Shown here piece after piece: positions 29,050-57,218 of a stretch of 64,000 bases of DNA; the stretch's first letter is position 1, and every line of letters starts with the position of its first letter. The position numbers and the translations under genes are program-made. Source of the DNA: Clostridia bacterium. GTDB lineage: Bacteria; Bacillota; Clostridia; Oscillospirales; CAG-272. The notes below the pieces were generated by a model, which saw only the letters and a program-made list of their open reading frames with translations, made no database searches and was not told where the DNA came from. The stretch spans positions 171,790 to 235,789 of the forward strand of contig JAFTMG010000006.1 of NCBI GenBank assembly GCA_017452525.1, in the 5' to 3' direction.

Positions 29050-29976
29050 TCATTTCCGATAAGCGCCGACCATCATGCGCGTCAGCGCACGCGCTTCTCT
29101 GAGTCCTGCGCCCTCAGGCGTCTCGCCCTTCATAAAGGCAACGACGGGAGCATCCTTGCCCGCAACCAGAGGAACCTCTGCCCCGTTCAGCGTGACCTTG
29201 CCCGATGCCGCGACCACATAGCCGCGGTCACCGCCGACCTCCATCGTCATGGGGAATCCCTTGGTCACAAAGCCGGTCTCATTGATGGCAATGGTGCCGT
29301 CCTCGTAGGTCATCACGGTCACGGCGTTATCCTCGATACCGTCGGGATTGAGGACCGCGTCCTTCTCATCACGGCATGCGTGAGTAAAGGCGGACTGATA
29401 GGTGCTCGGCTCTCCCAGTAGCCAGTTGATCAGGTACATGCCGTGCGCGCCAAGGTCGATCATGGCACCGCCGCCGCATTCCTTCAGATTGTAGAAGTGA
29501 GCGGGCAGCCAATGATCGATACTGCCACTGTGGCAGTTGCGGAAACGAACGTAATTGACCTTGCCCAGTTCTCCGCGGTCGATCAGATCCTTGACGGTCA
29601 GATGTACCGAGGTGAATTTCTGCACCAGAGAGATGACGAAGCGAACGCCCGCTTTCCGGACGGCATCCTCCACGCGAATGCAATCCTCCTCTGTCAGCGC
29701 AAGCACCTTTTCGGTAAAGATATGCTTGCCGCTCTCGGCGATCTTCACCATAACGTCGGCATGCGCGTCGGTCGCGGTATTGACGATCACACCCTCGGCA
29801 TCACTTGCCAACAGAGCGTCCAGAGAATCAAACGTGGGGATCCCGAACTTCTCGGCAAACGCCGTCTTCCACTCGGCATTGTCATCGTAAACTCCGACGA
29901 CCTCGCCGTATTCCAACGCTTTCTTGGTATAGTCCTTGGCGTGGACGTGCCATACGCCGCAAATTGCTACTTTCAT
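29050..29976 (-). CDS. Gfo/Idh/MocA-family oxidoreductase (second of pair)
   Basis: A 308-residue NAD(P)-dependent sugar or polyol dehydrogenase family member. The N-terminus VAICGVWHVHAKDY departs from the usual G-x-G-x-x-G, and the catalytic EKP motif reads EKV, though the Lys is kept. A conserved C-terminal GGAMIDLGAHGMYLINW region is present. It overlaps the upstream oxidoreductase gene by four bases (29973-29976). The substrate is unknown, and the altered cofactor-loop and EKP proline may mean changed specificity. Confidence 0.9.
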   Translation of the reverse strand: MKVAICGVWHVHAKDYTKKALEYGEVVGVYDDNAEWKTAFAEKFGIPTFDSLDALLASDAEGVIVNTATDAHADVMVKIAESGKHIFTEKVLALTEEDCIRVEDAVRKAGVRFVISLVQKFTSVHLTVKDLIDRGELGKVNYVRFRNCHSGSIDHWLPAHFYNLKECGGGAMIDLGAHGMYLINWLLGEPSTYQSAFTHACRDEKDAVLNPDGIEDNAVTVMTYEDGTIAINETGFVTKGFPMTMEVGGDRGYVVAASGKVTLNGAEVPLVAGKDAPVVAFMKGETPEGAGLREARALTRMMVGAYRK

Positions 29977-31058
29977 TCGAAATACACCGCCTTACCGGTC
30001 TTGGAGGAAACGTAGATCGCCTCAAGGATCTCGGAAACGACGCACGCCTGCTCGGGCAGAACGACGGGATCGGTATCCTCAACAACGGCACGGATCCAAT
30101 TGTGAGCTTCGGTCACGGCGGGCGTCACCTTGGCACCGGAGTAGAAGGCGACACCGCCTGCCTTGGTATCCACGGTGCTGTCGACCGCACGGTTGTATTC
30201 GATCTTATTGACGGTCAGACTGTCATTCTTGATCGCCAGACCGGCGCGGCTTCCGCACAGACGGCAGCTGCCCTCTGCGATCGGCTCGTCGGTATTGAGA
30301 GCCCAGCTGGTCTCCAGCATAATGGTTGCGCCGTTCTTCATCACGATCATAGCGCAAGCTGCTTCCTCCAGCGGCGTAGTGCTGACACCCTTATCACCCC
30401 AGATATTGCCTGCTTCGGGATGCTCGAGCATCTTATGCGTCTTACCCACGACCATGGCAGGCTCATAGTTATTCATCAAAGAGAGCGTCAGATCCAGAGA
30501 ATGGGTCGCGATATCGATGATGGGACCGCCGCCCTGCTCTTCCTCATTCAGGAACACGCCCCAGTTGGGAGTGCCTCTGCGGCGGATCGCATAGCAGTTG
30601 GCATAGTAGATCTCACCCAGAACACCGTCCTTGATCAGCTCTCTGGCATACTGCGTCTGTGCCTTCTGACGGTGCTGGTAACCGATGGTCAGCTTTTTGC
30701 CTGTTTCCTTGGCGGCGGCAACCATGCGGCGTGCGTCTGCCGCGGTCTTTGCCATGGGCTTCTCGCACATGACGTGCTTGCCTGCGTGCAGCGCGTCGAT
30801 AGAGATATCGGCATGCTCACGGTTGGGGGTCAGAACGTGGACGACCTCAATGGTGGGGTCCTTGAGTAATTCTTTATAGTCGGTATAGACCTTGGCGTCG
30901 GGTGTGCCGTATTCACGTGCTGCTTTCTCTGCCTTCTCGATCACGATATCGCAGAAGGCGACCATTCTAACGTTGGGAACGGTCTTCAGGGAGGGCACGT
31001 GCTTGCCGTTGGCAATACCGCCGCAACCGATGATACCTACGTTTACAATTCTTTCCAT
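29973..31058 (-). CDS. Gfo/Idh/MocA-family oxidoreductase (first of pair)
   Basis: A 361-residue family member with a canonical Rossmann start (GCGGIA, residues 11-16), EKPMAKT with the catalytic Lys, and GGGPIIDIATHSLDL where the Asp/His line the active site. Enzymes of this family oxidise or reduce sugars, inositols and amino-sugar derivatives. It has a strong promoter and is coupled to a second family member, so a heteromeric or two-step sugar conversion is likely. It diverges from the SGNH hydrolase operon. Confidence 0.93.
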   Translation of the reverse strand: MERIVNVGIIGCGGIANGKHVPSLKTVPNVRMVAFCDIVIEKAEKAAREYGTPDAKVYTDYKELLKDPTIEVVHVLTPNREHADISIDALHAGKHVMCEKPMAKTAADARRMVAAAKETGKKLTIGYQHRQKAQTQYARELIKDGVLGEIYYANCYAIRRRGTPNWGVFLNEEEQGGGPIIDIATHSLDLTLSLMNNYEPAMVVGKTHKMLEHPEAGNIWGDKGVSTTPLEEAACAMIVMKNGATIMLETSWALNTDEPIAEGSCRLCGSRAGLAIKNDSLTVNKIEYNRAVDSTVDTKAGGVAFYSGAKVTPAVTEAHNWIRAVVEDTDPVVLPEQACVVSEILEAIYVSSKTGKAVYFE

Positions 31059-31257: not shown

Positions 31258-32247
31258 ATGCTTCTGACACTTGAACAGATCCAAAATATTGCCCGTGGCT
31301 GTGCCCGCGTGGAGGAGAGGGACGGCACCTTTGTGCTGATGCGCTTCACCGAGCGGCAGGCACAGGCGTATCTCAATATCGGCAACGAGGATTTTTACAA
31401 CAAGACCTTCGCCACCGCTGGTGTACGCCTTGCCTTCAAAACAGATTCCCGCCTTTTTGCCTTTGATTACCGGTTTGCCCGCGGCTCCAGCCGACAGTTC
31501 GGTCACTTTGACGTCTATATTGACGGATACTTGACCAATCATTTCGGCACAGTGGGGCTTGAAAACATGGCGGGACGTGCCGATATTGCCCTGCCCGAGG
31601 GCATGAAAACGGTGGAGATCCACTTCCCGTGGTCCTATGGCGCCAGCATTTCCAACGTGACGGTCGAGGACGGCGCCACCGTGGAAGGCGTTTATCGCCC
31701 TCACACCATGATCTGCTTCGGCGATTCCGTCACCCACGGCTATGACGCCATCCACCCCTCGTTCTCTTACGTATCGCGTCTTGCCTCTCTGCTGGATGCG
31801 GACTGCATCAACAAGGGCATCGGCGGAGACATCTTCTTCCCCGCACTGCTTGAGGAGGCGGAAGGTCCTGACCCCGACTTTATTACGGTAGCCTACGGTG
31901 CCAACGATTGGTACAAGAGTACCCCCGAGGAATTTGAGGCAAACTGCCGCGGTTTTCTCTCGCGTATTACGGCACTTTATCCCACCTCCCGGATCTTCAT
32001 CCTCTCCACCATCTGGCACTGTGAGTACCATCTCAGATCCAAGCTAGGTATGACCGGTCCGGAGCAGAACGCGTGGATGCGGGAGATCTGCCGTGATTAT
32101 CCGACCCTTCATTACGTGGACGGTGCGCTCATGACACCTCACCGTCAGGAATTTTATACCGACCGCGCGGGTCACCCCAACGAGGCGTGCTTTGCCTTCT
32201 ATGCTTCCAACCTCTACGCCGCCATGGTCAAGGCACTCAATAAATAA
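31258..32247 (+). CDS. SGNH/GDSL-family hydrolase with N-terminal beta domain
   Basis: A 329-residue esterase/lipase-type protein. Residues 1-140 look like a beta-sandwich. The SGNH core has the nucleophile S157 in CFGDSVTHG, the oxyanion Gly in GIGGD, the Asn in YGANDWY, and a C-terminal Asp/His in DRAGHPN. No signal peptide or membrane segment is seen, so it is probably cytosolic and removes acyl or acetyl groups from something imported. The ATG follows AAAGGAG. It leads an operon with DUF5058, a membrane protein and an M20 peptidase. Confidence 0.9.
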   Translation: MLLTLEQIQNIARGCARVEERDGTFVLMRFTERQAQAYLNIGNEDFYNKTFATAGVRLAFKTDSRLFAFDYRFARGSSRQFGHFDVYIDGYLTNHFGTVGLENMAGRADIALPEGMKTVEIHFPWSYGASISNVTVEDGATVEGVYRPHTMICFGDSVTHGYDAIHPSFSYVSRLASLLDADCINKGIGGDIFFPALLEEAEGPDPDFITVAYGANDWYKSTPEEFEANCRGFLSRITALYPTSRIFILSTIWHCEYHLRSKLGMTGPEQNAWMREICRDYPTLHYVDGALMTPHRQEFYTDRAGHPNEACFAFYASNLYAAMVKALNK

Positions 32248-36256: not shown

Positions 36257-38215
36257 ATGCAAAACGCTTTACATATTCAATTCGAGCGCAACATGTTGAC
36301 CTTCTCGTCGGAGAGCTATACTCCTCTCTTCAAAGCGGATGCCGATTTTTGGCGGCTCCATCTGGATTTCTGTCAGGTGGGCAAAAATAATGAGCTGGGT
36401 GTCTATTCTCACGCGCAGGCGCCTGCCGCCATCCGTCATGAGGACAACACGCTGACCGTTCACTATGACGATCTCCTTGCCGAGGATGGAATTACCTATC
36501 CCATTGCACTGACGCTGACTGTCCGTCAGGTAAACGGCGCATTGGAATATACCGCCAAGATCGACAATCGAAGTGAGGTGCGCGTGAACGAGCTGCAATA
36601 TCCCTTCTTTGAAATAGCTTATACCACAGAGCAAAGCAAAAAGGATGTTCTTTATCTGCCAATGGGGCTCGGACAGCGCGTGACAGATCCGCTCAGCTAT
36701 GTCCAAAAAGCGCACACCGAATACATGGCTGCGGACTACAAAAACATCTGGCACCTTCACACTTATCCCGGACAGATGTCCATGCCTTGGATCTGTCTGC
36801 AAAACGGTGAGCATACCTTAGCACTCTCCCGCCGCGACGAGATCTGCCGTATCAGCGGCTTTGTTCTCGGCACAGGTCCCCGCGAGGAGAAGGATACCCG
36901 CTTGATCATGACCGTCAGCTCCTATCCTGCCGTACTTCCCGGTGAGACGGTCACGCTGGAGGGTTATCGCCTCGCCGTCTACGATACCGATTGGCGCGAG
37001 GAGGCCGCATCCTACCGCGCATGGTCCAATCACACCTATCTCGCGGATATCATCGACGAAAATGGCCGTATCCGCCACAAGTCAAGTATCAAACCGCTTC
37101 ACGGCTGGCAGCGTATCATTCTGAAGCATCAATACGGTGAGATTTTTCACACCTATCACGATCTGCCCCGCATTTATCGCGAGGGCGCGAAATACGGCAT
37201 TCGCATGATCCTGCTCTTTGCCTGGTGGCAGGAGGGTATGGACAGCGGCTATCCCAACTACCAGCCGGACGAAGAGCTCGGAGGTGCCGATGCCCTGCGC
37301 AATGCCATTCGCCAGATCAACGAACTGGGCGGTAAAGTGGTGCTTTACGCCAACGGTCACATCATCGATGTCAACACCGATTATTATCGGGACGAAGGTT
37401 GGAAATACACCATGAAGAACATCGAAATGCAGGAGTACCGTGAGTATTACAAATTCTCTAACAACGGCACGATGCTCCGCTACGGGGGACTCAAGACCTT
37501 TGTCGGTGCCTGCCACGGCACGCCACAATGGCGCAATAAGGTCGAGGAGCTGGCACACCGTCATCTGAATCTCGGCTCCAACGGCACCTTCTTCGATCAG
37601 CTCAGCTGTGGCTTCCGCCTTTGCTTTGATAAATCCCACGATCACGGCAACCGAATTGACGTTGATCCGCAATTCCGCGTGGATACGGTCAAGCGCATCC
37701 GCGAGATGGTGGATGAGGATCAATGGTTCGGCAGTGAGTGGGCATCCGACCGCATCAGTCCTCTGCTCGACTTCACCCACGGCTGCGGCACGGGTACGTC
37801 GCTCAAGGAGGGCGTTTATCCCTACATTTACCGTTACACCTTCCCCGAGGTGCTGACATCCAACCGTCTGGCGCACGACGAGAAGACGATCTACCGCCGT
37901 GAACTGAATTATGCCTTCATCCACGGTATGCTGTTCGATGTTGCCCTTTACCGCTGCCGCATCGATACCATGAACGATTGTCCCAATTACTCGGCGCTGA
38001 TCAAGAAGCTGACCGATCTGCGTGGGGCTTATCTTGATTTCTTTACCGATGGCACCTATGATCTGCCTTCGGTCGATCTGCCGCAGGGCATACGCGGCGT
38101 TCAATATACGCTCGGTGACCGTAAGATCCTGGCTCTTTGGAATGACAGCCGCGAGGACTGCACGCTGTGCGGCACGACCGTTCCCGCAGGCGACGTTGCG
38201 ATCGCAGAGCTTTAA
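36257..38215 (+). CDS. Glycoside hydrolase-like protein (DUF6259-like, TIM-barrel)
   Basis: A 652-residue protein with an N-terminal beta-rich domain (about 1-260), a central probable TIM barrel (IRMILLFAWWQEGMDSGYP near 310-330; GSNGTFFDQLSCGF near 445; GSEWASDRISPLLDF near 490), and a C-terminal beta region. Clusters of Trp, Asp and Glu suit carbohydrate binding. No signal peptide, so it probably acts on imported oligosaccharide. It resembles DUF6259 proteins of gut bacteria; activity and catalytic residues are not established. AGGAGGT precedes the ATG. Confidence 0.72.
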   Translation: MQNALHIQFERNMLTFSSESYTPLFKADADFWRLHLDFCQVGKNNELGVYSHAQAPAAIRHEDNTLTVHYDDLLAEDGITYPIALTLTVRQVNGALEYTAKIDNRSEVRVNELQYPFFEIAYTTEQSKKDVLYLPMGLGQRVTDPLSYVQKAHTEYMAADYKNIWHLHTYPGQMSMPWICLQNGEHTLALSRRDEICRISGFVLGTGPREEKDTRLIMTVSSYPAVLPGETVTLEGYRLAVYDTDWREEAASYRAWSNHTYLADIIDENGRIRHKSSIKPLHGWQRIILKHQYGEIFHTYHDLPRIYREGAKYGIRMILLFAWWQEGMDSGYPNYQPDEELGGADALRNAIRQINELGGKVVLYANGHIIDVNTDYYRDEGWKYTMKNIEMQEYREYYKFSNNGTMLRYGGLKTFVGACHGTPQWRNKVEELAHRHLNLGSNGTFFDQLSCGFRLCFDKSHDHGNRIDVDPQFRVDTVKRIREMVDEDQWFGSEWASDRISPLLDFTHGCGTGTSLKEGVYPYIYRYTFPEVLTSNRLAHDEKTIYRRELNYAFIHGMLFDVALYRCRIDTMNDCPNYSALIKKLTDLRGAYLDFFTDGTYDLPSVDLPQGIRGVQYTLGDRKILALWNDSREDCTLCGTTVPAGDVAIAEL

Positions 38216-46318: not shown

Positions 46319-47344
46319 TCAATACGGCGACACGGCGTTCGCCTTTTCCGCTGCGTACGCCGCGCACTTCTCTGCCCAGATCCCAGACAGGACGGCATCG
46401 TTCTTTTGCGAGGTCAATCCGTGCTTCTCGGTCAACAGTTTGCCGAAATAGGTACTCAGCTTCTCCGCACCCCATACGTTGAGATGAAGCCCCGCGTCAT
46501 AAGTATCCCGCTCCCAGTCGATGCCGATCTCCTCCGACATGGCAAGGAAATTATAATAGGCAAGTCCGTGTGCCTCGGCATATGCCGCGATCTGCGCGTC
46601 CCATTCCTCATACCACAGCGGATAGATGGAGGGCGCCTTGATCAGGATCAGCTCTACTCCGTAGTGTTCGCAAATCTCCCGCATTTTATCCAGATAGTCC
46701 ATGCAGGTCTGCGGAACGGTATAATCCTCCAGCGGGACCCATGGAGGCTGCGAGGTCACGGGGCGCACACCCGTTTGCATCAGATATCCGTTATACCCCA
46801 CGCGGTCACGGCGGAACAGATAGGTGATATCCTCCCCGGAAAGCTCATTCCAGCGGGAATGATAACGCAGAAGGGGGAACAGATAGGTAATGGCATCCTC
46901 TTCCTCGGTCATGGATGCCTGAACGGCACCCCATTTGGAGGAGGACCACCGCATCCCGTCAATGGACATACGGTTATAGGCTTCATTCTGCGGCGTACCG
47001 TATTTGACCGACAGCACGTTGAAGACGACCGCCTCGGGGGATTCGCGCCGTAACATCTCATCCAATAAATAATAGGACTGCCAGATCAGCTGCTGCGCTG
47101 AGCCGCGGATATAGGAGGTGATCCCATATTCCTCCCACAGCGTGATGGGAGAGAAGTTCTCATAGACTTCACAGTCTCCCACGAACAGGACCTGATGAGG
47201 CGAGGTCTCCTCGTAATACTCGGCGATCAATGCCCCCTCCGGGATGGATGTCATATATTTCGGGGTCATGAGCGCGGTGAGCAATTGCCAGATGACGATC
47301 ACTGCCACCGTCGCACACACTCCGGACAGTATTCTTTTTTTCAC
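46319..47344 (-). CDS. DltD/SGNH-like protein, partner of the MBOAT acyltransferase
   Basis: A 341-residue protein with one N-terminal membrane anchor and an extracytoplasmic SGNH-like domain. The block I motif reads VGDCEVYENFSP, with Cys (C58 from the GTG start) where the nucleophilic Ser normally stands; a C-terminal YDAGLHLNVWGAEKLS supplies the Asp and His. It immediately follows the MBOAT gene, as DltD-type partners do. I start at the GTG at 47344, which has GGAGG five bases upstream; an ATG at 47356 overlapping the MBOAT stop is possible. Confidence 0.82.
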   Translation of the reverse strand: MKKRILSGVCATVAVIVIWQLLTALMTPKYMTSIPEGALIAEYYEETSPHQVLFVGDCEVYENFSPITLWEEYGITSYIRGSAQQLIWQSYYLLDEMLRRESPEAVVFNVLSVKYGTPQNEAYNRMSIDGMRWSSSKWGAVQASMTEEEDAITYLFPLLRYHSRWNELSGEDITYLFRRDRVGYNGYLMQTGVRPVTSQPPWVPLEDYTVPQTCMDYLDKMREICEHYGVELILIKAPSIYPLWYEEWDAQIAAYAEAHGLAYYNFLAMSEEIGIDWERDTYDAGLHLNVWGAEKLSTYFGKLLTEKHGLTSQKNDAVLSGIWAEKCAAYAAEKANAVSPY

Positions 47345-47355
47345 CGCAACCTCCA

Positions 47356-48948
47356 TCAGAATTGATTGTAAATAAACTGGCTGGCATCAAATCCGATGCC
47401 GTAGGCACCAAAGATCATGATAAGCAGGAAGACGAGGGCGACCGCCGATGCCTCGGCGGTTGGATGGCGGTCCAGCTTGGCTCTCACCGGCTCGCGGATC
47501 CCCCACAGGCTGACGGCGAACATCACGGCGGTGGCGATCAGCAAAAGGATCCAATCGGCGCGTCCCAGCCCCAGATCCAGCACCGCTCCGTTGAACAGAT
47601 CTCCATAATTGAAGGTGGTGAACATGCTTCCCCACAGACGGAAGGTCAGCGGCACGTCCCGATAGCAATCCAGCGTGCGGATCACACCCATCAGAAGCAC
47701 TGTCCGCGCCGCCTGCACCCCGTGCCAGACGGCGGACTCATTCAGCCGCGGGAAGCGGCGGTAAAATCGGGTATACAGGGGGACACATTCCTGAGAGACC
47801 AGGATCACAAGACAGTTGAGAAGACCCCAAACGATAAAGTTCCACCCCGCGCCGTGCCAGAGTCCGGTCAGAAACCAGGTAGCGACCGTGGCAAGATAGA
47901 CGGGGATCCTCTTCCCCACCGCGTTGCCGAAATGCTGTCTTGAAAACTTGGAAAGCCTCTGCATCGGCTTGCAGACGGAAAGCGGATAAAAGACGTAATC
48001 GGTAAACCATGTTCCCATGGTAATATGCCAGCGGTTCCAATATTCCTTGGTAGAACGGGAAAGGAAGGGTCTGTTGAAGTTCTCCGTCAGACGGATCCCC
48101 ATCGCTTCGGAAAGACCGACGGTGATATCGATACCGCCCGTGAAATCGGCATAGATCTGCACGGTATACAGAAGGATCATCATCAGAACGTACATTCCGC
48201 GATACGACGCGGGCTCGTCCAGCAATGCCTTGATGACGATCAGCGCGCGGTCGGCGATCACCAGCTTTTTGAAATAGCCCCACAGCACGCGCTCCAGCCC
48301 CCACCGCACATTGCGGGAGGAGAAGGCGTGTCCGGCAGTCAGCTGCGGTCCCAAATCGGCGTAGCGGCTGATCGGTCCCTGCACCAGCTGAGGAAAATAC
48401 GACACGAAGAGCAAAAATTTCAGCGGGTGTCGCTCTGCCGAAACCTTTTCACGGTAAACGTCGATGAGATAGCTCATCGACTGGAAGGTATAGAAGGAGA
48501 TACCCATCGGCAGGAGCAGAGACGGAATATTCAGCGTATTCTCCGCGCCGAACGCATGCAAAAGGCGGTTGACATTATGTACGGCAAAGCCGGTATATTT
48601 CAACACCGCCAGCATGCCGAAATTGAATATCAGCCCCAACAGCAGCATACGGAAGCGTTTCTTTTTCTCCCGCGCCTTAAAGGACTTTCTCTGCTCCTTC
48701 TCCCACGCCTGCCGCTGTTCGGTCAAGGTGGTCTCCTGCGCCCGCAGATTGGCATCCATCCACCGTCCCACCGCGTAGGTGGAAGAGGCGGTCAGAAGCA
48801 GAAAGATCAGGTAGCGCGGTCCGGCAAGCCAATAAAACACAAGGCTCGCCACCAGCAGAAGACGCCATTGCCACGCTCGCGGGAACAGATAATACCCTAC
48901 GAGCAACAGCGCGGCAAAGAGCAGAAATTCATAGGATGTAAACAGCAT
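47356..48948 (-). CDS. MBOAT-family O-acyltransferase (DltB/AlgI-like)
   Basis: A 530-residue polytopic membrane enzyme of the MBOAT family that moves an acyl group across the membrane to a surface acceptor. The conserved histidines are H308 in NRWHITMG and H365 (catalytic) in TGLWHGAGWN. About 10-12 membrane segments are visible. The gene lies between an acyl carrier protein and an SGNH-like partner, so it most likely takes the acyl or aminoacyl group from the carrier. The closest scheme is DltB, but AlgI-like O-acetylation is possible. Confidence 0.93.
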   Translation of the reverse strand: MLFTSYEFLLFAALLLVGYYLFPRAWQWRLLLVASLVFYWLAGPRYLIFLLLTASSTYAVGRWMDANLRAQETTLTEQRQAWEKEQRKSFKAREKKKRFRMLLLGLIFNFGMLAVLKYTGFAVHNVNRLLHAFGAENTLNIPSLLLPMGISFYTFQSMSYLIDVYREKVSAERHPLKFLLFVSYFPQLVQGPISRYADLGPQLTAGHAFSSRNVRWGLERVLWGYFKKLVIADRALIVIKALLDEPASYRGMYVLMMILLYTVQIYADFTGGIDITVGLSEAMGIRLTENFNRPFLSRSTKEYWNRWHITMGTWFTDYVFYPLSVCKPMQRLSKFSRQHFGNAVGKRIPVYLATVATWFLTGLWHGAGWNFIVWGLLNCLVILVSQECVPLYTRFYRRFPRLNESAVWHGVQAARTVLLMGVIRTLDCYRDVPLTFRLWGSMFTTFNYGDLFNGAVLDLGLGRADWILLLIATAVMFAVSLWGIREPVRAKLDRHPTAEASAVALVFLLIMIFGAYGIGFDASQFIYNQF

Positions 48949-48968
48949 CGGTCAGCACTCCAGGGGGA

Positions 48969-49196
48969 TCATGCCTCGTCCAGTTTTTCGATCAGTGCCC
49001 AGATCGCGGCGGCGGAATTGAAGTTTTCGGGAATGATCTCCTCCGCGGGGATCGACACGTCAAAGGCGTCGTTGATCTCGGTGATCAGCGTCACGATATC
49101 CAGCGAATCCAGAATTCCCTCGTCGATCAGATCCTCTCTGCTCTCAAAGTCCACATCGGGGTGCAGCTCGTTCAGAATATTCAGCAATTGTTCCAT
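48969..49196 (-). CDS. Acyl/aminoacyl carrier protein (DltC-like)
   Basis: A 75-residue carrier protein with the phosphopantetheine site S31 in EGILDSLDIV and an acidic four-helix pattern. The ATG at 49196 follows AAGGAA at 8 bases. Position between the adenylation enzyme and MBOAT matches DltC, which carries D-alanine. Confidence 0.93.
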   Translation of the reverse strand: MEQLLNILNELHPDVDFESREDLIDEGILDSLDIVTLITEINDAFDVSIPAEEIIPENFNSAAAIWALIEKLDEA

Positions 49197-49224
49197 GATA
49201 TGATTTCCTTTCTCGGTTGATTTC

Positions 49225-50733
49225 TTATTCATTCAGCATCGCGCGCAGTGTCTGTCTGTCCAGCTTGCCGTTGGCGGTCAGCGGCATCGTCTCCAGCTGT
49301 CGAACGGTGGCGGGCAGCATATAACGGGGCAACAGCTTTTTCAGCGTAGCGCCAAGTCCGCCCGGGGTCTGATCTCCCGTATAGAATATGGCGATCTTGC
49401 GCCCTGCCTCATCGTACAGGCAACAAGCGCGACGCACACCCGGGTCGGTGGCGGCGGCAGCCTCGATCTCTCCCAGCTCAATGCGGTGACCCATGTGCTT
49501 GATCTGATGATCACGCCGTCCCACAAACATCAGTTCCCCCGCTTCGTTCAGATATCCAAGGTCACCCGTGCGATAAACGGTCTCGGGATAGGCGTGGTGA
49601 AGCGGGTTCTGCACAAACGCCTCGGATGTCTTTTCGGGATTCGCGAAGTAGCCGAGCGTCACGCAGGTGCCGCGCAGATAGATCTCTCCGCGCTCCCCCG
49701 GTGCGACCTCCCTGCCGTCCTCGCCAATCAGCAGAAGGCCCGTGTTGCGGAACGGTCTGCCCACGGGGATGCTCTCCCCCTCCTCAAAGGTGCGGTTCGC
49801 CTCATAATAGCAGGACATGCCCGTTGCCTCGGTGGGACCGTACAAATTGAAGAATCTCGCCTCGGGCAAGGCGGCACGCCACAGATTAAACTGACGGATC
49901 GGAAAGACCTCACTGCCAAAGGCTACGGTATGAAGATATCTGAGCGGGCATTTTTCCAGCACGTCAAAGGAGGAGATCATGGTCAGCGCCGAGACCACCC
50001 AGCAAACGGTGTTGATGCGGTATTCGTTCAGATATTCCGCCAGCTTAAAGGGAAACATAAACTGCTTTTTGGGTATGAAATACGTCGTTGCGCCGTATTT
50101 GACCGTCGGCATGATCTCCTTGAGAGGCGCGTCGAAATACAGCGGCGTCTGATTACCGAATACGGTATCCTCGCCGAACGGGAGTGCCTCACAAAGGCTT
50201 TCGGTATAATCGATCACCGAGCGGTGGCATGCCGCCACCCCCTTCGGCATTCCCGTGGATCCGGAGGTAAAGACCACGTAGATCGGATCGACGTCGATCT
50301 GTGCCGCCCGCACCGCCGCCAGCGCGGCGCCGTTCTCGGCACACGCGGCAAGAGACGCGCAATCGGCGATCTCGCCCTCAAAGGGAAGCTCTCTCGCCAG
50401 CCGCTCCGTTTTTGCCGAGCAGATCAGCAGGCGCGGTTGCAGCGTCTCCAATATCTTCTGCATGCGAAGCATGGGCATTTCAGCATCCATCGGTACGTAG
50501 AAGCAGCCCGCGTAGACGGTGCCGAAAAAGGCGGCGATCTCCATGGCGGATTTTTCCATCAGGATCACCACCGGTTCACGGCGCATGCCGCGGGCGCAAA
50601 CGGCGGATCCGATGGCACGGGAGAGGCGGGAAAGCTCACCAAAGGTCAGCCCCTGCTCTCCGTCGGAAAAGGCAAGCTTGTCCGGCAATCGCGCGGCGGT
50701 GCCTTCCAGATATTGCAATATATTGGTCAACAT
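49225..50733 (-). CDS. Amino acid adenylation enzyme (DltA-like)
   Basis: A 502-residue ANL-family enzyme that activates an amino acid as aminoacyl-AMP and loads it onto the carrier protein. Motifs: FTSGSTGMPKG at 155-165, D201 in YFDAP (the Asp that binds the amino group), NLYGPTEAT, YRTGDLGY and TANGKLDR with catalytic K490. D201 argues for an amino acid rather than a fatty acid. D-alanine is the likely substrate by analogy, but the pocket differs enough from DltA that this is not certain. GAAGGAG precedes the ATG. Confidence 0.9.
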   Translation of the reverse strand: MLTNILQYLEGTAARLPDKLAFSDGEQGLTFGELSRLSRAIGSAVCARGMRREPVVILMEKSAMEIAAFFGTVYAGCFYVPMDAEMPMLRMQKILETLQPRLLICSAKTERLARELPFEGEIADCASLAACAENGAALAAVRAAQIDVDPIYVVFTSGSTGMPKGVAACHRSVIDYTESLCEALPFGEDTVFGNQTPLYFDAPLKEIMPTVKYGATTYFIPKKQFMFPFKLAEYLNEYRINTVCWVVSALTMISSFDVLEKCPLRYLHTVAFGSEVFPIRQFNLWRAALPEARFFNLYGPTEATGMSCYYEANRTFEEGESIPVGRPFRNTGLLLIGEDGREVAPGERGEIYLRGTCVTLGYFANPEKTSEAFVQNPLHHAYPETVYRTGDLGYLNEAGELMFVGRRDHQIKHMGHRIELGEIEAAAATDPGVRRACCLYDEAGRKIAIFYTGDQTPGGLGATLKKLLPRYMLPATVRQLETMPLTANGKLDRQTLRAMLNE

Positions 50734-52059: not shown

Positions 52060-52088
52060 TTGACTTTTGGTACACTTCTCGGTATAAT
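52060..52088 (+). promoter_or_regulatory. Promoter of the glycyl radical enzyme operon
   Basis: TTGACT (52060-52065), 17-base spacer, TATAAT (52083-52088), 34 bases before the ATG. Confidence 0.85.
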
Positions 52089-52122
52089 TTTGTTAGAATG
52101 ATGCAGGAAAGGAGTACACATC

Positions 52123-54114
52123 ATGAGCCGAAAACTTTACGATCTGATCGTTTCCAGACAACACCATACATATCGCCGAGATCATCCCGAGTTGGAGTCT
52201 CTGGCAGAGGAATTTCACAAGGAAGGACTTGCCCCCATCGAGCGCATGACGCGCCGCTTCGAGTTGCTGACCTCGCTGGAGACACCCGTGCTTTTGCCCG
52301 AGGAAAAGATCTGCATGATGCGCACCGTCAAGCAGATCCCCGATTGCTTCACCGAGGAGGAATGGGCGGATATCAGGAGCCGCCACTTCATTCACGAGCT
52401 GGGATACATGTCCAATCTTTCCCCCAATTATGCCAACACCATCCGCGTGGGTCTTCTCGCCCGTTATGGGGAGGCAGACGAATACGGCAAGCGCATGATC
52501 GATGCCATCCTCTCTCTCACTGACCGCTATCGCGCGGAAGCGGAGAGAATGGGCAAGCAGGAGCTGGCGGCAGTATTGACCCGCGTTCCCCGCTACGGTG
52601 CCACCTCATTCTACGAAGCGTTGCAATTTTTCCGTATTTTGCACTATTTTCTCTGGCTGGAGGGCGATTATCACAACACCACCGGCCGTTTCGACCAATA
52701 CATGTTCCCCTATCTGAAGGCAGATATGGACAAGGGACTCTACACCCGTGAGACGGCGCTTGCCATGGTGGAAGACTTCTTCCTCTCCTTCAACAAGGAC
52801 AGTGACCTTTACGTGGGTGTTCAGCAGGGCGACAATGGACAGAGTATGGTGCTGGGCGGACGGACTGCCGACGGCAGCGACGGCTTCAATCTGCTCTCCG
52901 AGCTTTGTCTGATCGCCAGCCGCAACCTGCTGATGATCGACCCCAAGATCAATCTGCGCGTCAGCAAGGACACCCCGCTTGAGGTCTTTGAACTTGGCAG
53001 CGAGCTGACCCGTGCGGGACTCGGCTTCCCGCAATATTCCAACGACGACGTGGTGATCGAAGGACTGATCAAGCTGGGATACGCACCCGAGGATGCCTGC
53101 AACTACGTGGTTGCCGCCTGCTGGGAATTCATCGTTCCCGCCGTTGGCGCGGATATCGCCAACATCGGCGCACTCTCCTTCCCCCGCGTGATCGACACCT
53201 GCCTGCACCGTGATCTGGCGCACAGCGCCACCTACGGGGATTTCATGGAAGCGGTCCGCGCAGAGATCCGTGCGGAATGTGACCGCATCTGCGGCGGCAT
53301 CCAAAACCTTTGGTTCGTTCCCTCTCCGCTGATGAATCTTCTGATCGACGGCGGCATCTACAACGGTGCCAAGTACAACAATTTCGGCATTCACGGCTCC
53401 GGCGTGGCAACCGCCGCGGACTCTCTTGCCGCCATTGAAAAATACGTCTACAACGAAAAGTCCGTCACACCTGCCGCGCTGATCGAAGCGGTGGACAGTG
53501 ACTTTGAAAAGCACGCCGACCTGCTCCCCCTCCTCCGCTACGAGGCACCCAAAATGGGCAACAACGACGACGCGGCAGACAGCAAGGCTGTTGACCTGCT
53601 GGACACCTTTGCCGATGCCCTGCAGGGGCGCACCAACTGCCGTGGCGGCATCTACCGCGCCGGCACGGGAACCGCCATGTACTATCTGTGGCACGCGGCT
53701 GAGATCGGCGCCTCCCCCGACGGTCGCCGCCGCGGCGAGCCCTTCGGCACCAACTTCTCCCCCAGCCTCTTTGCCAACGTTCAGGGACCTATCTCCGTCA
53801 TCAAATCCTTTACCAAGCCTCATATGGAGCGCACCATCAACGGCGGACCGCTGACGCTGGAATTCGCCTCCTCCATGTTTGACTCTGCAGACAGCATCCA
53901 TAAGGTTGCCACGCTGGTCAAGGCGTTTGTGGAATTGGGCGGTCATCAGCTCCAACTCAATGCCGTCAACACCGAAACCCTCAAGGCGGCACAGGCAGAC
54001 CCCGACCGATACCGTCAGCTGGTCGTCCGCATCTGGGGCTGGAGCGCCTACTTCGTCGAGCTTGACCGCGAATATCAGGACCACGTTCTGCGCCGTCAGC
54101 AATATCGGGTCTGA
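52123..54114 (+). CDS. Glycyl radical enzyme (PFL-like) of unknown substrate
   Basis: A 663-residue enzyme of the pyruvate formate-lyase-like family. The active-site thiyl Cys is C333 in AACWEF, with the paired acid E335 (C-x-E), as in dehydratases and decarboxylases rather than the C-C of PFL. The radical Gly is G639 in RIWGWSAYF, where most members have RVxGYSA. It is clearly shorter than the 750-900 residues usual in the family, so loops are missing. The adjacent activase confirms a radical mechanism. The substrate cannot be read from sequence. GGAG precedes the ATG. Confidence 0.92.
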   Translation: MSRKLYDLIVSRQHHTYRRDHPELESLAEEFHKEGLAPIERMTRRFELLTSLETPVLLPEEKICMMRTVKQIPDCFTEEEWADIRSRHFIHELGYMSNLSPNYANTIRVGLLARYGEADEYGKRMIDAILSLTDRYRAEAERMGKQELAAVLTRVPRYGATSFYEALQFFRILHYFLWLEGDYHNTTGRFDQYMFPYLKADMDKGLYTRETALAMVEDFFLSFNKDSDLYVGVQQGDNGQSMVLGGRTADGSDGFNLLSELCLIASRNLLMIDPKINLRVSKDTPLEVFELGSELTRAGLGFPQYSNDDVVIEGLIKLGYAPEDACNYVVAACWEFIVPAVGADIANIGALSFPRVIDTCLHRDLAHSATYGDFMEAVRAEIRAECDRICGGIQNLWFVPSPLMNLLIDGGIYNGAKYNNFGIHGSGVATAADSLAAIEKYVYNEKSVTPAALIEAVDSDFEKHADLLPLLRYEAPKMGNNDDAADSKAVDLLDTFADALQGRTNCRGGIYRAGTGTAMYYLWHAAEIGASPDGRRRGEPFGTNFSPSLFANVQGPISVIKSFTKPHMERTINGGPLTLEFASSMFDSADSIHKVATLVKAFVELGGHQLQLNAVNTETLKAAQADPDRYRQLVVRIWGWSAYFVELDREYQDHVLRRQQYRV

Positions 54115-54116
54115 TC

Positions 54117-54932
54117 ATGCTGGGAACCGTTTTCGATATTAAGGAGCTTGCCATCCATGACGGCCCCGGCACGCGCATCACCGTCTTTTTGAAGGGGTGT
54201 CCTCTGCGCTGTCTCTGGTGCCATAACCCCGAGGGACTGGACGCCGCTCCGCAATTGGCGGTCAAACAGACGCTTTGCGTGGGATGCGGCACCTGCGCGG
54301 TGCCCTGCTCCCACCCCGAATGTCAGCCCTACGGCAGATGTCTGCATGCCTGCCCCAACGGGTGTCTCTCCGTCAAAGGAGAGCGCATCGACAGCGACAC
54401 GCTGGCAACGCGGCTTCGCGCCAACGCCGACGTGCTCGCGCTTCTCGGCGGCGGCATCACGGTATCGGGCGGTGAGCCGCTGATGCAAGCGGATTTTGTG
54501 TGTGAGCTGGCGGAAAAGCTTTCGGGCATTCATCTGGCGCTTCAGACCAGCGGTCACGCCTCTGCGGAGACCTACCGCCGCGTGATCGGTCATTTCGATT
54601 ATATCATGCAGGACGTCAAGCTTGCCGACCCGCAGCTGCACAGGCGGTATACAGGCGTGGACAACACCCGCATTCTCGAAAACATCCGCATTCTCCGCCA
54701 AAGCGGCAAGCCGTTTCTCTTCCGTGTTCCCCTCATTCCGGGTATCACCGACACGGAGGAAAACCTGCGCGCCATCTCCCGCATCGTAGAGGACGCACCG
54801 GTGGAGCTTTTGAAATACAATCCCTTTGCGGGTGCCAAGTACAACACCGTCGGCTTGACCTATCCTCTCCCCGAGCTTCGGAATCGGGACGAGGATTTCA
54901 CCAAATACTTTCAGAACGCGACCATCGCGTGA
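54117..54932 (+). CDS. Glycyl radical enzyme-activating radical SAM protein
   Basis: A 271-residue activase that abstracts a hydrogen from the radical Gly of its partner enzyme. The radical SAM motif is GCPLRCLWCHNPE; an insert holds two extra ferredoxin-like cysteine clusters (CVGCGTCAVPC and the later CLHACPNGC), as in the GRE-activase family but not in PflA. SGGEP and LLKYNPFAGAKY follow. It starts two bases after the glycyl radical enzyme stop, so the pair is a unit. Confidence 0.95.
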   Translation: MLGTVFDIKELAIHDGPGTRITVFLKGCPLRCLWCHNPEGLDAAPQLAVKQTLCVGCGTCAVPCSHPECQPYGRCLHACPNGCLSVKGERIDSDTLATRLRANADVLALLGGGITVSGGEPLMQADFVCELAEKLSGIHLALQTSGHASAETYRRVIGHFDYIMQDVKLADPQLHRRYTGVDNTRILENIRILRQSGKPFLFRVPLIPGITDTEENLRAISRIVEDAPVELLKYNPFAGAKYNTVGLTYPLPELRNRDEDFTKYFQNATIA

Positions 54933-55029: not shown

Positions 55030-55632
55030 TTGACCATAGGACAACGCATTGGCGAAACGCGAAGGAGCCGCGGCTACTCGCAGGAATACGTCGCCGAACA
55101 ATTGAACATCAGCCGCCAGGCAGTCTCCAAATGGGAGCAGGACCTGAGCGCCCCCGACACCTATAACCTGATCGCACTCGCCGAATTGCTCGGCGTTTCC
55201 GTGGAATATCTGGCAACGGGAAAGAAACAGGAACCAACGCAAGAGCCGTCACCCAATCTCCCTCTGTCCGCAGACAGTGCCATCAATACGCCCAAAATCG
55301 CGGGCTTGATCCTACTCGGCGCAGGACTTTTGGCATTGATATTGGGGTGCATACTCTCCAAAACACTGCTGGCGGTATCTGCCCTCTTACTGTTGTACGG
55401 CATTCTCTGTTTAACCGTCCGCAAGCATCTCGGTATTGTGCTTCTCTGTATCTCTCTTGTCATTTCGCTTTTGCTTGTGACCATGCTGATGCCTATCCGC
55501 GTTGCGGGAGATTCCGGTAACAGCGCGACCGTTATTACCCTTTTCCCACTTACTCTCCGGATAGTCATTGCAGCCGCCGTCATATGTATTCTGATCAAGA
55601 TCATTCGAAAATACAAAAACAAAATCAGATAA
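55030..55632 (+). CDS. XRE-family regulator with C-terminal membrane domain
   Basis: A 200-residue protein. The HTH (about 5-58) is of the SQEYVAEQLNISRQAVSKWE type, which is standard for clostridial XRE regulators. After a hydrophilic linker, about four hydrophobic segments follow (about 88-106, 110-128, 132-152 and 167-190), making this a membrane-bound DNA-binding protein. It starts with TTG at 55030 after GGAGG. Its place next to the glycyl radical operon does not prove control of it. Confidence 0.88.
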   Translation: MTIGQRIGETRRSRGYSQEYVAEQLNISRQAVSKWEQDLSAPDTYNLIALAELLGVSVEYLATGKKQEPTQEPSPNLPLSADSAINTPKIAGLILLGAGLLALILGCILSKTLLAVSALLLLYGILCLTVRKHLGIVLLCISLVISLLLVTMLMPIRVAGDSGNSATVITLFPLTLRIVIAAAVICILIKIIRKYKNKIR

Positions 55633-55683: not shown

Positions 55684-57162
55684 TTATTCGATCGAGTCAA
55701 AGCCATCGTTGATCTTTGTAAGAGTCTTCTCAATAACCTTTTCAGATGCCTTCAGCATCGAAGCAAGGTTATTACTACCATTGATCAACTGGTTGTTTAC
55801 AGCAACATTCAGATTACCGATCTGATAGTAGGTACCCACGTCGAAGAAGCGGGTTGCGAAGATGATATCAAGCATCTCCTCGGACTCAGCATCACGGATG
55901 CCCTTACCGACCAGGGTAATATCATAGTATGCGGGAAGCAGCTCCTGCTGACCGTAATAAGACATTGCCTCCATGATAGCGGCACTCATTTCGGGATCTG
56001 CGGCATCGGGAATGCACATCAGCGCGTTACCGTAAGCGTGCAGGGTGTTGCAGTACTCAGCCTGCTCCGCATCGCCCTTCGGGTAAGGAAGGATACCGAA
56101 ATCCAGCTCCAGCTCACGAAGCGCGTGAACGGAGTTGATGTAACGAGTGTAGAACAGTACTCTGCCCTCTTCGAAGGACTTGATAGAGCCGTCACCCTCG
56201 ATAAACTTGTTGTTCTGCTCGTTGCGGACGTTGATCCATCTCTCCAAAACGGCGAGGTTCTTCTCGTTGTTCAGGGAGTAAACGAGCTCAGAGCCGTTTT
56301 CAATGGTAGCAAAGCGAGCGCCTGCCGCATGCATAATACCGATGGCAGAGTCGGTCCAGATCAGGAAGCCGTACTGGTCGTTGTCATCGTAGGTGCCGTT
56401 ACCGTCCAGATCTGCGCCGATGCCGGTTGCCATCTGGATCATCTTTTCCTGAGTCCACTCATTGTTCTTAACAAGCTCATAGGGGTTATCCAGATTGTTA
56501 TTGGCAACCATGGTCTTGTTGAACAGGATGCAGTAGGTGCAGTTGTTGTCCAGCGTCATAGCATCGCCGGTGGTGTAGAACATACGGCCGTCGATCTCCA
56601 GCTGCTCCTGCGCCTTGGGGTCCCACCAGGACTTGGAAAGATCGATGTTTGCCATTTCGTTCAGGTCATACAGATAGCCCTGATATGCCAGGCTACTGAC
56701 GTCGTACGTACCGATCGAAGCAATGTCATATGCATGGTCACCCGCCATCGTGCTGGTGGTAACCTTGGTAAAGCCCTTACCGGATCCGCCGGAGGAACCG
56801 AAGTCCTCTTCAACCTGAATGGTAACACCCATCAGATCGCCCAGCAGGGTCGACATATTATATCTGGCATCGTTCAACGGCTCGCCGGTGATCTCTTCTG
56901 CCCAGAACTCATCGTAAGACCAGTTACCGCAGCAGAGAATGTTGATCAGCTTACCGGCATACTCGGGCTTTATCGTGATCTCCAGCTCTTCCTTGGTTTC
57001 TGCGGGCTCGGTGGTCACGTCGGTGCCGACCGTGGTATTTTCGCCGGCATTGTCAGTTCCGGCAGTCGTGGTAGCCGCGGGGGCGTCTGTTTTCGTGCCG
57101 CATGCGACCATAACGGAGAGGCACATCATCATCGCAAGAAGCAACGCAAGTGTTCTTTTCAT
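55684..57162 (-). CDS. Extracellular solute-binding lipoprotein, orphan
   Basis: A 492-residue lipoprotein: signal peptide with MVAC lipobox (C21), a Thr/Ala/Glu-rich linker (about 25-60), then a large solute-binding domain of the sugar ABC type (DIASIGTYDVSSLAYQGYLYDL, YGFLIWTDSAIG and a C-terminal ATRFFDVGTYYQIG). It is transcribed alone from its own promoter; no permease is next to it. It resembles the other orphan binding protein at 38231-39682. The ATG at 57162 follows AAAGGAG at 7 bases. Confidence 0.85.
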   Translation of the reverse strand: MKRTLALLLAMMMCLSVMVACGTKTDAPAATTTAGTDNAGENTTVGTDVTTEPAETKEELEITIKPEYAGKLINILCCGNWSYDEFWAEEITGEPLNDARYNMSTLLGDLMGVTIQVEEDFGSSGGSGKGFTKVTTSTMAGDHAYDIASIGTYDVSSLAYQGYLYDLNEMANIDLSKSWWDPKAQEQLEIDGRMFYTTGDAMTLDNNCTYCILFNKTMVANNNLDNPYELVKNNEWTQEKMIQMATGIGADLDGNGTYDDNDQYGFLIWTDSAIGIMHAAGARFATIENGSELVYSLNNEKNLAVLERWINVRNEQNNKFIEGDGSIKSFEEGRVLFYTRYINSVHALRELELDFGILPYPKGDAEQAEYCNTLHAYGNALMCIPDAADPEMSAAIMEAMSYYGQQELLPAYYDITLVGKGIRDAESEEMLDIIFATRFFDVGTYYQIGNLNVAVNNQLINGSNNLASMLKASEKVIEKTLTKINDGFDSIE

Positions 57163-57218
57163 GGGAATTCTCCTTTCATTGTTCACGATCTCATATTTTG
57201 AAAATCGTATACAATAGA

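Follow-up and report, generated by a model that had tools for sequence, protein, structure and literature searches.

A short glycyl radical enzyme clade of gut Clostridia with altered radical-site motifs: a candidate eliminase for sugar- or polyol-derived substrates

Which reaction is catalyzed by a glycyl radical enzyme (GRE) whose radical glycine is flanked by two Trp residues? This question is raised by two adjacent genes in a 64,000-nucleotide stretch of DNA from a Clostridia bacterium (hereafter the window, meaning the whole stretch that was analyzed). The first gene (52123–54114, plus strand) encodes a GRE of 663 aa that matches PF02901 (PFL-like, 261 bits) and PF01228 (Gly_radical, 67 bits), both over the cut-off. 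The second (54117–54932, plus strand), whose ORF begins 2 bp past the GRE stop, encodes a GRE-activating radical-SAM enzyme of 271 aa, with matches to Radical_SAM and Fer4_12 in Pfam and to TIGR02494 (237 bits vs a cut-off of 174). Both ORFs lie where a preliminary description of this DNA had placed a two-gene unit, and the promoter it claimed has a predicted counterpart in a sigma-70-like site (TTGACT-17-TATAAT, 52060–52088, plus strand, 11/12 in a consensus scan) located 34 bp 5' of the start codon; the same scan gave four promoter-type sites in the region, whereas shuffled sequence would yield 1.3. A ribosome-binding site, AAAGGAG, can be read at 52108–52114 (plus strand). The thiyl-radical Cys and catalytic Glu, assigned by homology, lie in C333-W334-E335 (codons 53119–53127, plus strand), and the radical glycine lies between two Trp residues, W638-G639-W640 (codons 54034–54042, plus strand), in the segment RIWGWSAYF. 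In the activase, the CX3CX2C motif for the SAM-binding 4Fe-4S cluster (C28, C32, and C35; 54198–54221, plus strand) is invariant in 71/71 activases, the complete ones mostly being of 251–280 aa. It is followed by a short auxiliary ferredoxin-like insert (54276–54365, plus strand), of which C54, C57, C60, and C79 are present in all 71 sequences, C64, C69, and C75 in 69, and C83 in 43.

The pair has no operon partners within the window, where it is flanked by a transglutaminase-like/dlt region (by eye) and, downstream, by an HTH-type ORF (55030–55632, by eye). The earlier statement that no dehydrogenase or microcompartment gene is adjacent holds, but its extension to transporters needs a qualification, as a gene for a solute-binding lipoprotein (SBP_bac_8; 55684–57186, minus strand, opposite to the pair) lies about 750 bp off, outside the operon. 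A dlt-like (D-alanylation) operon is seen by eye near the pair (46319–50733, minus strand). Further away, at 29050–31058, 31258–32247, and 36257–38215, reading by eye picked out a GDSL-like hydrolase, a glycosidase-like ORF, and a pair of Gfo/Idh/MocA-like oxidoreductases, which suggest a second sugar-catabolic region in the window.

Relatives of the GRE were collected from one genome per species, among which 519 loci encoded some relative, and the best 80 of the 519 were kept. The window protein and 65 proteins from these 80 loci gave an alignment of 66, and addition of 19 sister proteins gave a set of 85. The 65 aligned relatives are 653–679 aa long and 60–74% identical to the window protein, and more than 100 positions are invariant in the 66 proteins, including C333, W334, E335, W638, G639, and W640. 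Because both motifs are invariant across 66 aligned proteins of this length, they do not arise by chance. The sister proteins (41–52% identity) keep CWE, and most of them have RVWGWSG. In the whole set of 85 clade members the catalytic Cys, the radical Gly, C-W-E, and W-G-W are present without exception, whereas 11 of 11 reference GREs have A-G-Y. Accordingly, the motifs read in the preliminary description are genuine, and the Trp pair around the radical glycine, which it took as one sign of a subfamily, is common to the clade (85/85). Among the named sources, all of them gut Clostridia, metagenome-assembled genomes of goat, sheep, deer, cattle, buffalo, yak, and horse origin predominate, and cultured strains are few (Ructibacterium gallinarum, Acetatifactor muris, and Bacterium 1xD8-48). 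Two cultured gut commensals, R. gallinarum DSM 107454 and A. muris DSM 23669, carry orthologues at 74% and 68% identity, respectively. Of 391 Clostridia genomes sampled, 20 hold a clade match at 1e-110 or better, and the clade occurs in dozens of rumen or hindgut species.

We compared the enzyme with known GRE families by profiles, in which glycerol dehydratase (317 bits), propanediol dehydratase (276–293), HypD (286), PflD (285), and CutC (231–279) scored best, all of them eliminases, and decarboxylases (149–198) and PFL (80) scored lower. The CxE motif is found in decarboxylases too. All GRE equivalog models matched in NCBIfam scored far below their cut-offs, and membership was rejected for HypD (NF043068, 274 vs 1100), PflD (NF007437, 244 vs 1109), CutC (TIGR04394, 225 vs 1050), and HpsG/HpfG, HPAD, and IAD (136–237 vs 1000–1150). 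Likewise, pyruvate formate-lyase was rejected, since A332-C333-W334 holds no adjacent Cys-Cys pair and TIGR01255 gave 68.5 vs 994. Assignment as a glycerol/propanediol dehydratase failed on Asp447, which is N347 in 85/85 members although C-x-E is present, and assignment to the YbiW/PflD type failed on the His of the N-terminal H-x3-[DN]-[YF] motif, which is N98 in 85/85. AAREs are recently recognized, eliminase-like GRE homologues of unknown substrate in which the radical Gly is replaced with Ala, Ser, or Thr (PMC11528403); the clade is not of this type, because it keeps the Gly (G639) and alters its neighbors instead.

Identity to HypD, CutC, PflD, YbiW, and the glycerol and propanediol dehydratases is 25–29% over 530–660 positions, and, for comparison, an identity of 40–50% has been regarded as already short of the threshold that divides most GREs of distinct function (PMC11528403). 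Quick maximum-likelihood trees, one of 68 rows and the other of 53 with PflB as the outgroup, gave the WGW clade an SH-aLRT of 100; its branch, at 0.95 changes per site, exceeds in length the ones holding HypD or CutC. It did not cluster inside a characterized subfamily among the tree rows (HypD, CutC, PflD, YbiW, and the glycerol/propanediol dehydratases); IslA (isethionate lyase), HpsG, HPAD, BSS (benzylsuccinate synthase), and HplG, which lie outside the trees, were compared by profile score and fold only. We found no report of a GRE with WGWS in the open-access literature searched. The earlier proposal, that the protein falls in none of the well-known subfamilies, is supported by these low scores, identities, and tree support and is largely right: the clade is a distinct, never characterized subfamily of an already known kind of enzyme, set apart from IslA, HpsG, HPAD, BSS, and HplG by profile and fold only.

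GREs without known function are numerous in the gut (PMC11574389). The window genome itself (G000) has genes for eight or more GREs; those other than the window enzyme are of 667–766 aa, none over the TIGR01774 cut-off, on contigs C8, C23, C115 (two), C71, C49, C72, and C61 (loci L137 and L157–L162). Other, uncharacterized GREs with a G-W-N radical loop (RVSGWNARF or RVCGWN) and C-W-E or C-Y-E, unlike the named families, were seen at L157 (8603–10786), L158 (8528–10711), and L160 (163–2385) of this genome and at L173 (7543–9669) and L176. A further short clade of 700–736 aa (L163–L167, L169–L171, and L174) has CIENF and RVSGFSA, keeps the active-site His, and is supported by an SH-aLRT of 100, with no characterized member in the reference set used.

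The AlphaFold2 modeling proposed earlier, carried out on the 66-row alignment, returned a complete GRE fold (pLDDT 90.8, pTM 0.91), which matched GREs over residues 1–663 in Foldseek and VIA-align comparisons. The best match was PflD (8yjo; Z 39.5, rmsd 2.5, 655 of 663 residues aligned), followed by PflD with 1,5-anhydromannitol-6-phosphate (8id0; Z 39.1) and glycerol dehydratase (Z 39.0), where Z values less than 1 apart are ties. The enzyme is indeed short for a GRE, as had been stated, compared with E. coli PflD (765 aa), YbiW (810 aa), HypD (786–791 aa), and CutC (849–857 aa). Loss of a domain was ruled out as the cause, because the model aligned end to end with PflD. The notion of a shortened scaffold is instead refined to the trimming of eight loops relative to PflD, with the largest cuts following residue 75 (21 residues) and residue 96 (31 residues), which accounts for the length of 663 aa with every domain present.

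Residue equivalences in the active site were taken from the sequence alignment with reference GREs, not from model coordinates. C333 and E335 align to C433 and E435 of glycerol dehydratase. N98, at a position that we take to be that of H164 of glycerol dehydratase, is found in 85/85 clade members and corresponds to His in PflD, YbiW, and HypD and to Asp in the CutC rows, and N347, also in 85/85, corresponds to Asp in glycerol dehydratase (D447) and PflD. In addition, D273, K275, W334, G575, P576, T578, E580, W638, and W640 are invariant in the clade and occur in none of the references, which have Lys or Arg at the position of E580. H424 is nearly invariant, and Y183-H184 fall at His281-Ser282 of glycerol/propanediol dehydratase in a register that moves by one between alignments. 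With C333, E335, and G639 conserved but N98, N347, and the other residues particular to the clade, the core of the predicted radical relay is kept, while the groups predicted to act on substrate hydroxyls and the environment around the radical glycine are rebuilt. The three Trp residues (334, 638, and 640) by the Cys and Gly of this predicted relay are unusual. Since N98 and N347 replace the hydroxyl-handling residues of the dehydratases, the leaving group or the chemistry may differ.

Of the known systems, PflD and YbiW are GREs that open the rings of 1,5-anhydromannitol- and 1,5-anhydroglucitol-6-phosphate. They share with the window enzyme the complete fold, CxE, the radical Gly, and a neighboring activase, but identity is 25–28%, their length is 765–810 aa vs 663, their regulators and neighbors are other ones, and the His of both, the Asp of PflD, and A-G-Y are replaced with N98, N347, and W-G-W, respectively. 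Their opening of anhydrohexitol phosphates is attributed to Ma et al. (2024) in PMC12441222 (complexes 8id0 and 8id7). The B12-independent glycerol/propanediol dehydratases resemble the enzyme in the top profile score, the fold, C-x-E, and the Tyr before N-D, but differ in identity (29%), in D447 (N347 here), and in their microcompartment or dehydrogenase partner, which is absent here. HypD shares CxE, the fold, and a high profile score, but it falls far short of its NCBIfam cut-off, has His at N98, and is about 125 residues longer.

The preliminary description had found no clue to the substrate among the neighbors, which is correct for the window but not for other genomes, where the neighbors hint at a carbohydrate class. 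In 67 of the 75 loci an activase gene comes next after the GRE, and as many as 28 of the 75 have an AraC- or LacI-type regulator no more than two genes upstream (a divergent AraC regulator close upstream in 18 and LacI in 9). The 95 operon neighbors span 135 Pfam families, none found in more than three, and were too varied for a substrate to be read from conserved neighbors. Many of them are carbohydrate enzymes (GH36-like, trehalase-like, GH51, GH127, GH2, GH35/42, GH43, GH4, and GH94) and esterases (GDSL, pectin- or xylan-type, and carbohydrate esterases); the presence of glycosidases alone is weak evidence, because gut Clostridia carry many such genes. No PTS genes were recognized among the scanned neighbors. 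For two families, the GH36-like protein and DUF4867, proximity was weighed against the number of copies. The GH36-like gene (PF05691), chosen for counting since it had already been seen near the GRE, lies directly 3' of the activase in 5 of 30 GRE-bearing genomes, the five cases spanning four genera; with 19 copies in the 30 genomes, about 0.15 would be expected within 10 kb by chance (Poisson P 6e-7, the true P being larger because the genomes are related). This link looks real. The protein has intact KIDNQ and RCSxDF catalytic motifs in nearly all copies, and the one relative it has in the PDB is a galactinol-sucrose galactosyltransferase from a plant; the window genome has no PF05691 copy over threshold. 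DUF4867 failed the same test, occurring near the GRE in 0 of the 30 genomes searched although it shares a locus with the GRE in 4 of 80. It was dropped as a partner along with a link to sulfoquinovose, its role itself being open (PMC11968277).

The order of genes also varies around the pair. A GDSL-type hydrolase gene lies between GRE and activase at L064, L066, L070, L073, and L076, as do DUF4867 at L082 and a GH35/42-type enzyme at L097. A calcineurin-type phosphoesterase is encoded upstream of the GRE at L069, L076, L094, and L103 (directly so at L069 and L103), and an MFS transporter near it at L076, L094, and L099.

Because the best profile matches are all eliminases, C–O elimination is the most likely reaction. 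By sequence and model, the protein is an intact GRE of a distinct clade with its own activase, and we consider it somewhat probable that it works as a C–O-cleaving eliminase whose substrate derives from a sugar or polyol; it would probably strip off water, or some other group, from a sugar derivative out of plant fiber. By homology, the activase would cleave SAM and abstract a hydrogen from G639; the resulting glycyl radical would take the C333 hydrogen to give a thiyl radical, and this would in turn take a hydrogen from a hydroxyl-bearing carbon of the substrate. E335 would then remove the hydroxyl proton, and the ketyl radical would expel the neighboring group, for which hydroxide or some other oxygen leaving group is the likeliest candidate, before the product radical recovers a hydrogen from C333. 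Genomic context suggests as the substrate a small polyhydroxylated molecule (a sugar acid, polyol, or sugar derivative) freed by plant-glycan glycosidases, and as the product a deoxy-keto compound that would pass to reductases and aldolases. The very mixed contexts across loci and the isolation of the window's own pair count against this carbohydrate reading.

A specific form of the eliminase explanation, in our view somewhat unlikely, is a sugar-acid dehydratase, in which the radical would form at C2 beside the carboxylate and the C3 hydroxyl would leave, supplying a KDG-type aldolase with a 2-keto-3-deoxy acid. It draws on two operons, L055 (GRE, activase, SDR, aldo/keto reductase, a sugar ABC importer with a putative solute-binding protein and permeases, a DHDPS-type aldolase, and GH36) and L073 (an IolB-type isomerase over the cut-off, PfkB kinase, class II aldolase, FGGY kinase, DUF4867, ETF, GRE, GDSL, and activase), and on a glycerate kinase near the GRE at L058, L110, and L117, but these loci are only a handful of the 80 and IlvD- or enolase-type dehydratases ordinarily do that reaction. 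No other recognized dehydratase family occurs in L055 or L073, where two and some genes, respectively, have no Pfam match. By appearance, both are sugar-catabolic operons and weakly fit a GRE with a deoxy-keto product. Opening of an anhydropolyol or cyclic ether as in PflD and YbiW, possibly on a non-phosphorylated substrate, is quite unlikely: PflD leads the fold matches and ranks among the highest by sequence, but the Z gaps below 1 are ties, the NF007437 score is far under its cut-off, the His of PflD/YbiW and the Asp of PflD are N98 and N347 here, and none of the scanned neighbors was recognized as a PTS gene.

Chemistry on a non-sugar substrate, by a C–N or C–S lyase or a decarboxylase, is unlikely but a serious rival; CutC, isethionate lyase, and HPAD have the same fold and the neighborhood is not conserved, yet those families score lower and the enriched partner is a glycosidase. 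That the gene is an inactive or decaying copy is very improbable, as its reading frames are intact, more than 100 positions are invariant in the 66 proteins, and the activase adjoins the GRE at most loci, against which stands only that GRE-rich genomes hold many paralogues.

Returning to the C–O-cleaving eliminase, it seems evenly balanced whether the CWE/WGW clade carries out an as yet unknown GRE reaction, such as radical dehydration of a sugar acid or C–O cleavage of a sugar, at its rebuilt site (W334, W638, W640, and Asn for His/Asp) during plant-glycan breakdown in the herbivore gut. Characterized GRE clades mostly each have their own reaction, several of which are important in the gut. 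The clade is a concrete target for a new radical reaction in fiber breakdown, and its clade-specific radical-site motif offers a way to see how glycine-flanking residues tune radical formation.
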